NCBI GenBank assembly: GCA_947630175.1 | Contig: CANRGJ010000004.1 | Location: 124,001-188,000 of the forward strand | Source: an uncultured Ruminiclostridium sp. | GTDB lineage: Bacteria > Bacillota > Clostridia > Oscillospirales > Ruminococcaceae | Length of the DNA: 64,000 nt | Direction: 5' to 3' | Shown here: one piece after another, positions 444-4,788 of the stretch | Position numbering within the stretch: the stretch's first letter is position 1 | Layout of the letters: each line of letters starts with the position of its first letter | Position numbers and translations under genes: made by a program | Notes under the pieces: generated by a model | What the model saw: only the letters and a program-made list of their open reading frames with translations | Database searches by the model: none | What the model was told of the DNA's origin: nothing

Positions 444-1469
444 TTACATTATCTCCTGAAAAATTTTATTGAGTCCTGTGTAATAATCGTCTTTATCTGC
501 GTATTTCCCGAAATTTTCGTATGAAATACCTCCTGCTGTTTCCAGCTCGAATTTATGCTGAATAAAAAAGCTCATTGCCCTTGAAAGCGACTGGGCATTT
601 CCTGTTTTAACAACAAAGCCGTTTCCGTCCACGATATACTTTGCTCCCACGTTTTCCGTCACTATTATGGGTCTTGCGTACATTGCGCCCTCTAACGCTA
701 TTAAAGAGCAGGACTCGTCAAAGGACGGGACAAGCACCACGTTTGTTTTTTTGTACATTCGGCTTTTTCCGTATGTCAGTTCGCCGTGATACACAATGCC
801 GTCCCGCATTTTTTTAATGAGAGGCTTGTTATATTCAGCCGCCCAGCTCGGAGCGCTTCCGTATATGTCAAGGACCGCTTTTTTCCGCAGTTCGGGCGGA
901 AGCATTTCAAACGCTTCCATAGCTACCGAAATTCCTTTTCTCGGCTCGATTGTCGCCGCTATGAGAAAGTGTACCTTTTTTCGCACAGAATTAATTGTTG
1001 CCGTTCTGCCAAGCGGTTTTATCAAAAAGTTATGAAGTATATGTAAATCGTTAGGATCGTATGTTTTTTCAATAAAATGCGCCGCGTATTCGCTGACGCA
1101 GACGATGTGATCGGCGTTGCAGATACAGCCTTCGTCAATGTGATTTTTTGCCATTATTTCAGAAAGATTTTCAGCTTCTCTGAGGTACAAAATAGTGGGA
1201 ATATAGTCCTGCAAAGCAAGGGCGGCTTTTCCGCAGAAAACGGTATTGCAGACCGCTATATCAAAATTCCCTGAGATTTTTTTGCACTTTGATATGTCAA
1301 ATTTTCTTACTCTGAAACCGTGCTGATTAAACCTGAAAGAAAACGGTCCTTTCGTCTGTGTGTACACTTTTACGGAATGACCATGACTGCGCAAAACTCT
1401 CGCCACGTTAAGAAGGCTGTTCGGCGCGCCTGTGTAGGTCATTTCGTGGGACAACAAAAGTATTCTCAT
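444..1469 (-). CDS. Glycosyltransferase family 4 (GT-B fold)
   Basis: This 341-residue protein starts MRILLLSHEMTYTGAPNSL, the usual GT4 opening with a glycine-containing acceptor loop. Its second half has the donor-binding half of the GT-B fold, with AATIEPRKGISVAMEAF and the E-x7-E type region around FDESCSLIALEGAMYARPII. It should transfer a nucleotide sugar onto a cell-surface glycan. It overlaps glf upstream by 4 bases and sits 1 base from the GT2 gene downstream, so it is co-transcribed in a polysaccharide operon. The exact sugar and linkage cannot be read from sequence. Because glf is adjacent, galactofuranose is a possible donor, but that is inference only. Confidence 0.9.
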   Translation of the reverse strand: MRILLLSHEMTYTGAPNSLLNVARVLRSHGHSVKVYTQTKGPFSFRFNQHGFRVRKFDISKCKKISGNFDIAVCNTVFCGKAALALQDYIPTILYLREAENLSEIMAKNHIDEGCICNADHIVCVSEYAAHFIEKTYDPNDLHILHNFLIKPLGRTATINSVRKKVHFLIAATIEPRKGISVAMEAFEMLPPELRKKAVLDIYGSAPSWAAEYNKPLIKKMRDGIVYHGELTYGKSRMYKKTNVVLVPSFDESCSLIALEGAMYARPIIVTENVGAKYIVDGNGFVVKTGNAQSLSRAMSFFIQHKFELETAGGISYENFGKYADKDDYYTGLNKIFQEIM

Positions 1470-2563
1470 TGTAATTCTTTCTTTGAAGCTTCCAGTGCCA
1501 GCGCGATCACCTTGTCCATATCAAGATACTTGTAAAGTCCAAGTCTGCCGCCAAAAATCACGTCTTCGCGTTCGTCGGCAAGCTTTCTGTACTGCCCGTA
1601 GAGGGTGTTATTTTTTACGTTGTTTACGGGATAGTAAGGTTCAACTCCCGGCTTCCACTCTGCCGAATACTCACGGCTGATGACGGTTTTGGGCTGTTCG
1701 CCGAACTCGAAGTGTTTATGTTCTATTATTCTTGTGTAGGGAACGTCTGCGTCGGTGTAATTTACCACTGCGTTGCCTTGGTAGTTGTCGGTGTCCAAAA
1801 TTTCGGTTTCAAAGCGGACGGAACGATACTCCAGCGCTCCCAACTTAAAGCCGAAGAACTCGTCAATTGCGCCTGTGTAAACTGTCTTTTTGGCAATATC
1901 GGGGTTCTCTTTGATAAAATCAAAGTAGTCTGTATTCAGCTTTACTTCTGCTTTTTCCAGCATTTTCTCAATGATTTGAGTATAGCCGCCTATCGGTATT
2001 CCTTGGTATCTGTCGCTGAAGTAGTTGTTATCAAAGCGGAAACGGAGTGGCAGGCGCTTGATTATGAAAGCGGGCAATTCGTTGCAGGGGCGGCCCCACT
2101 GCTTTTCGGTGTAGCCTTTAACAAGCTTTTCGTATACGTCGGTGCCGACTAATTTTAGCGCCTGTTCCTCAAGGTTTTGAGGTTCGTCTATGTCAAGCTC
2201 CGCAATCTGCTCGGCTATCTTCGCTTTAGCCTCGGCAGGGGTTTTGATGTTCCACATTTTGCTGAATGTATTCATATTAAAGGGCAGATTGTATAGCTCG
2301 TCCTTGTATGAGGCGACGGGAGAATTGATGTAATTGTTAAATTCTGCGAACTGATTTACATATTCCCATACCAATTTATCGCTTGTATGGAAGATGTGCG
2401 CGCCGTATTTGTGGACGTTTATTCCCTCAACTTGTTCGGTGTAGATGTTGCCTGCTACGTTGGGGCGTTTGTCTATTACCAAGCACTTTTTACCCCTTTT
2501 GCCTGCCTCGTATGCGAATACTGCGCCGAACAGTCCTGCGCCGACTATTAAATAATCAAACAT
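1466..2563 (-). CDS. glf: UDP-galactopyranose mutase
   Basis: This flavoenzyme interconverts UDP-galactopyranose and UDP-galactofuranose, the donor of Galf residues in bacterial surface polysaccharides. The 365-residue length is typical. The N-terminus shows the FAD-binding Rossmann motif DYLIVGAGLFGAVFA with an acidic residue at LVIDKR, followed by the family signature NVHKYGAHIFHTSDK. The conserved Arg/Tyr-rich substrate region appears around YTEKQWGRP and RFDNNYFSDRYQGIPIGGY. The start codon overlaps the stop of the degenerate recombinase gene as TAATG, which suggests translational coupling. Two glycosyltransferases follow without gaps. It acts in the cytoplasm. The identification is secure; the polymer it serves is not visible. 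Confidence 0.97.
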   Translation of the reverse strand: MFDYLIVGAGLFGAVFAYEAGKRGKKCLVIDKRPNVAGNIYTEQVEGINVHKYGAHIFHTSDKLVWEYVNQFAEFNNYINSPVASYKDELYNLPFNMNTFSKMWNIKTPAEAKAKIAEQIAELDIDEPQNLEEQALKLVGTDVYEKLVKGYTEKQWGRPCNELPAFIIKRLPLRFRFDNNYFSDRYQGIPIGGYTQIIEKMLEKAEVKLNTDYFDFIKENPDIAKKTVYTGAIDEFFGFKLGALEYRSVRFETEILDTDNYQGNAVVNYTDADVPYTRIIEHKHFEFGEQPKTVISREYSAEWKPGVEPYYPVNNVKNNTLYGQYRKLADEREDVIFGGRLGLYKYLDMDKVIALALEASKKELQ

Positions 2564-3486
2564 TAGCTTACTTCCTCCGCTATAAGATTTATAGCATGAA
2601 TTTTACTGTCCATTGTTGGCTTTAAACAGCTTGAATAGGTACTTTGAACTGATGAATTCCCCAAAATATCAGTGATCGTAACAATATCTACGCCGCTGTT
2701 GACGCAGCGGTCGATGAACAGCCTGCGCAGTTCGCTGAAGCTGATGCTCGGCAGGTCCTCGCTTTTCAAAAGCGAACGCAGGCGGTACTGCATCGTTCTC
2801 GGCTCCACCGGGGTGAGCGTCCCTGAAAGGAAAAATCTATCGTCATCGGTCTGAAATTGCTTCAGTATCTCCTGCAAAAACGGCGCCAAAGGCACTTTTC
2901 GTACGCCGGAATCGGATCTCAGATCAGTCAGGATAAGCCCCGTGTTTTCACCTGCGGATATGCGCTGGAGCGTTTTTGATATGGTTAAAATCCCGTTTTC
3001 CATATCGATCTCACGCCACCTTAAGGCGCATAATTCCCCTATTTTCAGCCCCGCAAAAAGGGTGAGGAGTATGCCCGCCTTTGTAAGATTCGGTTCCTCC
3101 GTCAGCACCTCGCAAAGCCGCCTGCAATATATTTCATCATATATTTTTTTGGTAGGAGTTTCCTGCTCAGGGCGGACGAAAACCGCGTCTATCGCCGGGT
3201 CGGGGCAGCCGTAGGCTCTGGAAATATATTTGGTTATCATCTTTATCTGTATCAGAATATCGTATATGTACTGCGAAGTCAGCCCCTCGCCTGTCAGGTA
3301 TGTTTTAAATTCCATCAGCTTGTCCACAGTAACGTCTTTCAGCTTGGTTTTTCCGAAATAGGGGAGAATGTTTTTCTCAAGCTTCACCGTGTACTGAGCG
3401 CAGGAGGTGGGCTTCACCCGCAGTTTGACAGAGTCCAGCCACTTTTCTGCGGCGGTCGCAAAGGTCATATTCCTCGGATTTGTCAT
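2563..3486 (-). CDS. Tyrosine-recombinase-like protein lacking catalytic residues
   Basis: This 307-residue protein is a phage-integrase-family homologue. The start is placed at 3486 because AGGAGG lies 8 nt upstream; an upstream ATG at 3534 in the same frame lacks an SD. It has a SAM-like core-binding domain (about 5-105) and the catalytic-domain fold, but compared with the intact neighbour at 3585-4637 five of six catalytic positions differ. The first Arg is Lys (AGLKIGEL), Lys is Arg (LRSDSGVR), the first His is Ser (SELRR), the second His is Asn (LGNSS), and the nucleophilic Tyr is Cys (about residue 287). Only the second Arg remains. The AP2-like N-terminal arm of the neighbour is missing. 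Strand cleavage by Tyr is therefore not expected. A DNA-binding partner, a regulator or a decaying gene are the alternatives. Its stop overlaps the glf start. Confidence 0.9.
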   Translation of the reverse strand: MTNPRNMTFATAAEKWLDSVKLRVKPTSCAQYTVKLEKNILPYFGKTKLKDVTVDKLMEFKTYLTGEGLTSQYIYDILIQIKMITKYISRAYGCPDPAIDAVFVRPEQETPTKKIYDEIYCRRLCEVLTEEPNLTKAGILLTLFAGLKIGELCALRWREIDMENGILTISKTLQRISAGENTGLILTDLRSDSGVRKVPLAPFLQEILKQFQTDDDRFFLSGTLTPVEPRTMQYRLRSLLKSEDLPSISFSELRRLFIDRCVNSGVDIVTITDILGNSSVQSTYSSCLKPTMDSKIHAINLIAEEVS

Positions 3487-3584
3487 TGGCTTTTCCTCCT
3501 TTTTTTGGAATTTTTTGATTGTCTTGAATTTCATCTTTCACGAAAAAGCCGATGGCAAGGGCAAAAAAGCTGTTTTGACGGCAG

Positions 3585-4637
3585 TTATGCCGCAAAGGTC
3601 AGACGTTTCATAAACTTCTGCTTGCGCTCCATTGAGGAATGGACGTATCTGTTCAAGGTAATTTCTACGCCTGAATGACCGAGGATTTCCGATAACGACT
3701 TCACATCAAAGCCCATTTCAACGCAGTTCGTGGCAAACATATGGCGCAGGGCATGGAAATGTATTGACGGCAGGTTTGCTTTTTTCAGGACTTTTTGGAA
3801 GCGGTACTGCATTACACGGGGTTCAATGGGTTTCAGAGTGGAAGAAAGGAGGTAGCAATCTTTGCTTGCGGTATACCTTTTTACTAATGGTATTATGCAG
3901 TCAGGTATCGGAATTTCTCTGACGGAGGAATTGCTTTTTGGCTCGGTAATTATCAGCTTGGTGCCGCCGTTTGTTCTTATGCGTTGAATAGTTCTTGTTA
4001 CGGAAATAGTACGCTTAGAAAGGTCTATGTCTGACCATTTTAAGGCGCATAACTCACCTATGCGCAAGCCTGTGAACAGTGAAAGCGCAATACCAAGTGA
4101 AGTTAAATTCTGGTTTGCACTGAGGTATTTCTGTAAGCGGGTTTGCTGATTTTTTGAAAGCAGATTTACTTCCACCCGTTTCCTTTTCGGCAAAACTACT
4201 TCGGCAATTCTATTTCGGATATTGTAGCGGTTGACGGCAAATTTCATCACGGATTTCAGAAGTATCACAATATCTGCTACATAGTTTGAGGACAATCCGC
4301 TTTGCAGCCTGTCTGCTATGAATTTATTCAATAGAGAAGCGTCAAGCTTATCTGCGCAAACGTTGCCAAATGCAGGCAGGATATGGCTTTCCGCTTTGCC
4401 GACGTAATTGGAAATCGTCGATTCTTTCAGCCTCAATTTGGAAAATTCCAGCCATTCCAAAAAAAGATTTTTTACCGTCAGACCCACTTCGCAATAGCTT
4501 TGATTTTCCTTGAACTTTTTGATTTTTTGCCTAACCTCATCGCTGGTCTTTCCATAGAAATATCTGAGCTTGTGACAGCTTTTGTCCGTCAGCCGTCCTT
4601 CGTACCGTCCGTCCCTTCGCAAATAAATATTTTCCAT
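3585..4637 (-). CDS. Tyrosine site-specific recombinase (integrase family), catalytically intact
   Basis: This 350-residue recombinase should cut and rejoin DNA through a 3-prime phosphotyrosine intermediate. The start is taken at 4637, where AAAGGA lies 9 nt upstream; an ATG at 4664 has no SD. In order there are a short arm-binding AP2-like segment (MENIYLRRDGRYEGR), a SAM-like core-binding domain (about 55-140) and a catalytic domain. The expected residues are present: R192 (TGLRIGEL), K234, H295 and R298 (HALRH), H321 (LGHSG) and Y331 (LNRYVH). It is the first gene after the promoter at 4706-4733, and the degenerate paralogue and glf follow. No phage structural genes or evident att sites are nearby, so a role in switching the polysaccharide operon or another locus is more likely than prophage integration (inference). 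Confidence 0.93.
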   Translation of the reverse strand: MENIYLRRDGRYEGRLTDKSCHKLRYFYGKTSDEVRQKIKKFKENQSYCEVGLTVKNLFLEWLEFSKLRLKESTISNYVGKAESHILPAFGNVCADKLDASLLNKFIADRLQSGLSSNYVADIVILLKSVMKFAVNRYNIRNRIAEVVLPKRKRVEVNLLSKNQQTRLQKYLSANQNLTSLGIALSLFTGLRIGELCALKWSDIDLSKRTISVTRTIQRIRTNGGTKLIITEPKSNSSVREIPIPDCIIPLVKRYTASKDCYLLSSTLKPIEPRVMQYRFQKVLKKANLPSIHFHALRHMFATNCVEMGFDVKSLSEILGHSGVEITLNRYVHSSMERKQKFMKRLTFAA

Positions 4638-4705
4638 TATTTTTTCGTCCTTTCTTGTTGACATTTTTGCGGTTTTATGCTATCATTGTTGAAGAATTCA
4701 TGTTT

Positions 4706-4733
4706 ATCATACTATATTTTTTGCCTTTCGCAA
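4706..4733 (-). promoter_or_regulatory. Promoter of the recombinase-glf operon
   Basis: On the minus strand TTGCGA (4733-4728) and TATGAT (4711-4706) are separated by 16 bp. The site lies just downstream of two terminator hairpins that insulate it from the UPF0210 gene. The leader to the recombinase start is about 65 nt. Confidence 0.6.
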
Positions 4734-4748
4734 ATGATGAAATATACG

Positions 4749-4788
4749 AAAACAGACCGATGAGCAGGATAACTCATCGGTCTGTTTT
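4749..4788. terminator. Bidirectional terminator hairpin
   Basis: A 16-bp perfect stem (4749-4764 with 4773-4788, containing ACAGACCGATGAG) has an 8-nt loop. It is followed by a T run on the plus strand and a shorter TTTT on the minus strand. It is the second of two hairpins separating the UPF0210 gene from the recombinase operon. Confidence 0.75.

Follow-up and report, generated by a model that had tools for sequence, protein, structure and literature searches.

The Hin switch of Salmonella is worked by a serine recombinase, and its invertible segment carries the recombinase gene together with an outward promoter that governs the adjacent operon; we know of no dead Hin paralogue. A 64,000-nucleotide stretch of DNA from an uncultured Ruminiclostridium sp. 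(GenBank assembly GCA_947630175.1, contig CANRGJ010000004.1, positions 124,001 to 188,000 of the forward strand; "the window" in what follows) holds a locus of the same anatomy, with a difference in the enzyme: its recombinase, here called A, is a tyrosine recombinase, and the locus therefore falls outside the Hin-type segments as defined by a serine recombinase. The glycan operon next to it opens with the gene of a dead paralogue of A, here called D. On balance we favor the view that this is a self-contained, Hin-like phase switch in which a tyrosine recombinase controls a surface-glycan operon, and in which D is a product of the ON state and probably also a DNA-binding brake on A.

The gene of Hin is placed within the invertible segment in the literature (PMC5903667). 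Tyrosine recombinases also flip promoter elements for surface factors, as proposed here, at fimS, hyxS and ipuS of Escherichia coli, but there the recombinase genes lie beside the element or away from it and, in the part of the account available, no dead partner is described (PMC6083910). Tyrosine-type recombinases likewise adjoin the invertons of gut Clostridia; the excerpted account describes neither a dead paralogue nor an A-D cassette (PMC11892184). For a recombinase fold turned repressor there is nevertheless a precedent: MrpR, the repressor of prophage SPbeta, is a DNA-binding regulator that has the tyrosine recombinase fold but no recombinase activity, and resembles D in lacking catalytic residues (it has Asn at the first catalytic His); it differs in being a phage repressor, in keeping Lys and Tyr, and in having, in the sections at hand, no active paralogue described beside it (PMC10516654). 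For D, such DNA binding is a proposal, and the likeness of the two proteins is one of fold class. Capsule operons, for their part, can bear a trans-repressor at their head: according to the excerpted source, the regulators UpxY and UpxZ of Bacteroides head each of several phase-variable capsule operons, as D does here, and UpxZ represses the other capsule loci, but both act on transcription elongation (PMC7315117), while D has Pfam matches to recombinase families only. Searches of open-access literature turned up no report of an inversion switch that includes a dead paralogue of its recombinase. The new element, then, is a conserved dead paralogue as first gene of a switched glycan operon. What is added to an earlier note on this DNA is that A and its predicted promoters lie between inverted sites, that the window is probably in the OFF state, and that the pair is multicopy, with different operons.

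A (350 amino acids; 3585..4637, minus strand) and D (307 amino acids; 2563..3486, minus strand) each start at an ATG supported by a ribosome-binding site (at 4637 and 3486, respectively). They are paralogous and both intact, with 36% identity over 281 columns, and Pfam Phage_integrase and SAM-like domains are found in each. The earlier note had credited A with all six catalytic residues and D, over 307 intact codons, with the loss of five, and both statements hold: A has R192, K234, H295, R298, H321 and Y331, where D has K148, R190, S251, R254, N277 and C287, so that one Arg is left. The pattern extends to the whole set that was found (the collection of relatives took in the best 80 of 509, so that more distant D may be missed): the R-K-H-R-H/W-Y signature of catalytic tyrosine recombinases is found in all 18 paired A and in none of the 21 full-length D. 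Could the catalytic Tyr of D simply have shifted? A Tyr stands one residue ahead of the Cys (in locus L087, Phe) position in 15 of the 21 D, though not in that of the window. The AlphaFold model of D is a complete tyrosine recombinase fold (mean predicted local distance difference test score, pLDDT, 84.7; the loop between N and C is modelled poorly, at under 50), and its best match in the PDB, the nearest solved structure, is Tn1549 Int, an integrase of the Tn1549/Tn916 type that serves a transposon. When Tn1549 Int is aligned with a profile built from A and D, the His/Asn and Tyr/Cys columns stay in register; a shifted Tyr is rejected, and the earlier note was right to call D catalytically dead. 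The fold, the C-terminal helix and the second Arg all survive in D, so that it could plausibly bind DNA and assemble with A, whereas cleavage by it is implausible. The two proteins also differ at the other end: the core-binding domain starts after 54 residues in A, whose N-terminal extension we take to be an arm-binding domain, and after 8 in D. In 17 of the 21 D it is preceded by at most 26 residues (in the other four the N-terminal length comes from stop-to-stop frames and is uncertain). A separate observation concerns the far end of A, whose stop codon lies inside a short inverted repeat, GCGGCA-TAAC-TGCCGT (window 3580-3610); by eye, similar short repeats occur at the ends of other A genes.

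In the paired loci, alignment of the flanks of A finds the gene enclosed by inverted sites with a common plan: an outer arm, a spacer of about 7 bp, and an inner arm with the consensus nTTTGCGAAA, the shared arm motif being TTTGCGAAA and the outer arms being less regular than the inner. The window's invertible segment measures 1214 bp from spacer to spacer (3529..4742), as supported by its inverted sites, by the inversion seen between the C6 locus and its counterpart in another genome, and by contig ends in a relative (the last two described below). Its D-side recombination site (3519..3545, plus strand) consists of outer arm 3519-3528, spacer 3529-3535 and inner arm 3536-3545, and its promoter-end site (4726..4752, minus strand) of inner arm 4726-4735, spacer 4736-4742 and outer arm 4743-4752. 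The spacer is TTTCATC at both; the arms differ, which accounts for the absence of these sites from the 25 repeats listed by a general inverted-repeat search. Spacer cores are of 9 kinds among the loci, and the 6-bp core is identical between the two sites of a locus in 14 of 14 cases, as against 22 of 182 between-locus pairings. (A note on method: the spacer test covers 14 of the 18 paired loci, L085, L091, L114 and L149 being excluded, and the within-locus agreement is partly circular, because sites were picked by similarity; the contig ends are an independent check. An ungapped site search missed the window and L054, giving unrelated matches there; the sites of these two loci rest on flank alignment and the shared spacer, and in the window also on the contig ends.)

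Inversion can be followed between genomes. At contig C6 of the window's genome (G000) A and D are divergent; in contig C8 of G005 the same upstream flank (95.6% identity, 1972 columns) runs into the opposite end of the segment (88%, 872 columns), and the flank and segment alignments overlap solely in a 21-bp repeat, which puts the breakpoint inside the repeat. Two contigs represent the window-type locus of G005, C34 on the flank side (95%) and C23 on the side of D; each opens with GATGAAA, its first letter being the innermost one of the predicted spacer. The best G005 matches to the window segment itself are only 85% and 82%, so that G005's own copy of the segment is missing; contigs that end at the spacer on both sides suggest mixed orientations in the assembly. 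Orientation is readable at 23 loci (from the flank alone, with no D in view, at G005 C8 and C59 and G018 C18 and C35), 18 of them co-directional and five divergent: G000 C6, G445 L114 and L149, G005 C59 and G018 C35. That the locus is an inversion switch, with both orientations present in relatives, is well supported, and the earlier note's surmise of phase variation of a surface glycan is borne out to that extent. The enzyme that inverts the segment is presumably A.

Which orientation is ON? The co-directional arrangement, in which A, D and glf all run in one direction, was a candidate for that reason; promoter scans and the comparison of 24 cassettes overturned it. A promoter-like site lies a short way upstream of A, on the strand opposite to the gene. 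In the window it is a strong outward promoter by prediction (TTGACA-17-TATCAT, the -10 being extended, 11 of 12 matches; 4658..4686, plus strand) and faces away from the operon. The best outward match has 17-bp spacing in all 24 cassettes (19 D-type loci and 5 solo) and a score of 10-12 of 12 in 23 (9 in L149); a TG precedes its -10 in 20, and its -35 is exactly TTGACA in 19. At most two of 100 mononucleotide shuffles reach its score in 22 of the 24. The predicted promoter of A is weaker (TTGCGA-16-TATGAT; 4706..4733, minus strand). Its -35 element (TTGCGA or TTACGA among the loci) sits in the inner arm of the site, and in 15 of 17 loci a -10 with 5 or 6 matches follows at a distance of 16-18 bases (the mean there is 4.76, whereas neighbouring positions average 2.99; p about 5e-5); a protein that binds the arm should therefore block A. 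The outward predicted promoter faces D when A and D are divergent and exits the segment when they are co-directional. By the orientation of this stronger predicted promoter, the divergent state is ON and the window probably OFF, provided that the promoters work as their sequences read. Just beyond the segment stands a hairpin (4749..4788), in the outward direction a G+C stem followed by TTTTTT, and in 15 of 16 loci the 90 bases beyond the segment have a folding energy of -20 kcal/mol or lower, the exception being G035 C13, at -3.2.

Full-length D number 21, in six genomes: three in G000 (each in an A-D pair: the window, C9 and C6), one in G005, five in G018, two in G029, one in G035 and nine in G445. 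Those of the genomes that bear names are metagenome-assembled genomes (MAGs), labelled either uncultured Ruminiclostridium sp. or Acetatifactor sp.; five named D-bearing MAGs have "Lapin" in their isolate names, which we take to mean rabbit. A scan of 71 genomes of the genus gave 16 matches in five genomes (12 full D, one partial D and three A types). In 391 genomes of the class, four genomes other than the window's own had one match each, all of them intact A types, and in 398 genomes of the phylum G000 alone matched, at E 1e-92. Pairwise identity among D ranges from 30 to 99%, with a median of 47%. At the six catalytic columns the 21 D have: first Arg, R 16, K 5; Lys, K 9, G 5, R 3, Q 3, D 1; first His, S 18, G 1, R 1, N 1; second Arg, R in all; second His, N in all; Tyr, C 20, F 1. 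The loss that the earlier note had called targeted is thus universal at three columns only (first His, second His and Tyr); the first Arg and Lys columns vary, and the second Arg is never lost. All 18 paired A are RKHRHY.

Is D, then, a decaying relic that the switch carries along? The variable Lys column might be so construed, but all 21 full-length D are open, none a decayed frame, and Asn and Cys are retained in 21 and 20 of them, respectively. The ratio of nonsynonymous to synonymous substitution rates (dN/dS, NG86) of the dead copy also speaks of maintenance rather than decay, being 0.025 (window vs G005), 0.075, 0.076, 0.120, 0.127 and 0.144 in six D pairs (dS is saturated in the last), compared with 0.042-0.127 in seven A pairs and 0.117 and 0.513 in two solo pairs, the latter value resting on a dS of just 0.017. 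We consider the relic hardly credible. In a tree (made by a quick method without bootstrap) the 20 D that were taken in form one clade, with a Shimodaira-Hasegawa-like approximate likelihood ratio test (SH-aLRT) value of 99; 17 of the 18 paired A cluster together (SH-aLRT 89), and the A of L085 belongs to a distant lineage. Low dN/dS, a single D clade, and Asn and Cys fixed down to 30% identity argue for selection for a non-catalytic role, as the earlier note had suggested; that D is under purifying selection, which has kept its frame, is well supported by these comparisons.

A and D have different histories within a genome. The A genes of the window and C9 are 91% identical, their D genes 51%; across the window, L018 and L019, the A genes group by genome, and the D genes and the sites group by type across genomes. 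It is as if A were homogenised by gene conversion within genomes. Two damaged genes were noticed in passing: an A-type gene in G000 C5 (L021:9075-10237) is broken over two overlapping frames, and another recombinase, at C9:81010-81996, has two in-frame TAG.

In the window, the stop codon of D overlaps the ATG of glf (UDP-galactopyranose mutase; 1466..2563, minus strand), and a GT4-type glycosyltransferase gene comes next (444..1469, minus strand). The earlier description of A and D as the first two genes of this operon is apt for D; A lies in the invertible segment, and the stronger predicted promoter there faces away from the operon. (Nor is this a recombinase-in-trio element: those have three adjacent recombinase genes, whereas the window has two, then glf.) The first gene after D is glycan-related for all 21 full-length D, and the glycan operons behind D differ from copy to copy; kinds of first gene are glf, GT8, GT4, GT2-like (at L076 the GT2 match falls under the Pfam cut-off), IspD-type, NeuB, RgpF, GHMP kinase and galactofuranosyltransferase-like. 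Might the pair instead belong to a mobile element that inserts and excises glycan cassettes, inversion being a side effect? Pairs do occur in the Acetatifactor-named MAG as well as in Ruminiclostridium-named MAGs, and G018 contains a 76% relative of the flank upstream of the window cassette, the match ending before the cassette. But the inverted sites enclose A alone, with the operon outside, outward promoters recur, and there was no D among the 42 viral loci found; we judge the mobile element very improbable. (The G018 relative, L250, C4:60751-62164, corresponds to the gene upstream of the window cassette; the match ends 119 bases before the site, so that the cassette is probably absent there.)

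The role of D can be read from such comparisons of sequence only indirectly, and the feedback brake is our first choice among several. In the mechanism that we propose, A would invert the segment of about 1.2 kb that holds its own gene, its own weak promoter and the strong outward promoter. With A and D divergent (ON), the outward promoter would serve D, glf and the glycosyltransferases; with A and D co-directional, as in the window (OFF), it would read out of the segment into the hairpin. D, made mainly in the ON state, would bind the recombination sites, where it would either join A or take its place, and would mask the -35 in the promoter of A; recombinase and inversion would both be shut off, and the ON state held. 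Acting in trans, D could also hold sister glycan loci off. Recognition of the sites by D would fit the finding that site sequence tracks the distance between D and not that between A (partial Mantel 0.79, p 0.0002, vs -0.23 at 14 loci; 0.73 vs -0.22 when two near-copies are dropped).

One could also imagine D as an obligate partner: mixed A-D tetramers would invert the segment, A cutting one strand pair and D contributing structure or directionality, like a one-sided XerC/XerD. (In XerC/XerD-type pairs both partners are catalytic; D lacks the nucleophile.) D adjoins A in each of the 18 paired loci, that is, wherever both flanks are in view, it has kept the fold and the second Arg, and the inner arms are the more regular ones, all of which would suit such a partner. 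Six close relatives of A, however, also lie between repeats (perfect over 27-31 bp in five) without a D, so that the A family seems not to need one, and at L085 D stands by a distant recombinase with a different site. We think the obligate partner unlikely; control of recombination directionality by D, which the earlier note had in mind, is one possibility among several. Two loci with an A-type gene and no D deserve separate mention. At L020 (8076-12010, on G000 C5) a solo A cassette, which has an outward promoter and inverted repeats that match perfectly over 31 bp, stands before the gene of an 887-aa, secreted-looking protein with no Pfam match. At L102 (9776-15692) an intact A-type recombinase without D lies directly ahead of BrxA, BrxB and BrxC genes, which suggests a phase-variable BREX defence system.

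A further proposal dispenses with any effect on inversion and makes D a transcription regulator of the glycan operon, either an activator or a roadblock at the site behind the outward promoter. The position of D at the head of the operon and the divergent state, which puts a site just behind that promoter, are congenial to it; the recombinase ancestry of D and the fact that A's promoter overlaps the arm direct attention to A and the sites first, and we rate this regulator as rather improbable.

Against the feedback brake itself several points must be weighed. 1) The correlation of sites with D may be explained by linkage, because A looks homogenised within genomes. 2) L085 (3388-5568) pairs a normal dead-type D with a distant-lineage recombinase that uses another site, a perfect one of 28 bp; the locus may be a cassette swap in which D stayed. 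3) By the shuffle control the outward promoter is weak in L085 (16/100) and L149 (28/100), and by the -10 test the promoter of A is absent in L114 and L149. 4) The folds of the 90 outer bases had no shuffle control, and a terminator scan lists the window hairpin on the inward-reading strand alone, not the outward. 5) The scan lists no terminator-like site between A and D in the window, so that D may be made in the co-directional state too. 6) No ON locus was seen in G029 (two loci read) or G035 (one).

The brake can be extended to several loci in one cell, at the price of greater doubt. D would then serve a glycan switch of many loci as its memory and as its exclusion factor: the D that the ON locus makes at high level would cover the shared arm motif, silence recombinase promoters and block synapsis at its own and at sister loci, keeping the chosen glycan ON and the others OFF, and the brake would have been born from the invertase's own gene family. 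The numbers of divergent loci per genome (one of three in G000, one of two in G005, one of seven in G018, two of eight in G445, none of two in G029 and none of one in G035) would fit exclusion among loci and are too few for a test. We hold this extension tentatively, and slightly more so since rechecking left both the outward terminator and the count of ON loci on less firm ground.

What the locus suggests is that Clostridia-type gut bacteria have a multi-copy system of invertible promoters for surface glycans, in which the recombinase gene lies within the segment that it presumably turns and the switched operon opens with a conserved pseudo-recombinase. The anatomy of the A/D switch is simple enough to be tested with two genes and a reporter. 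If D is the brake, it would explain how a switch, once thrown, stays put, and how several glycan loci in one cell might avoid firing together.

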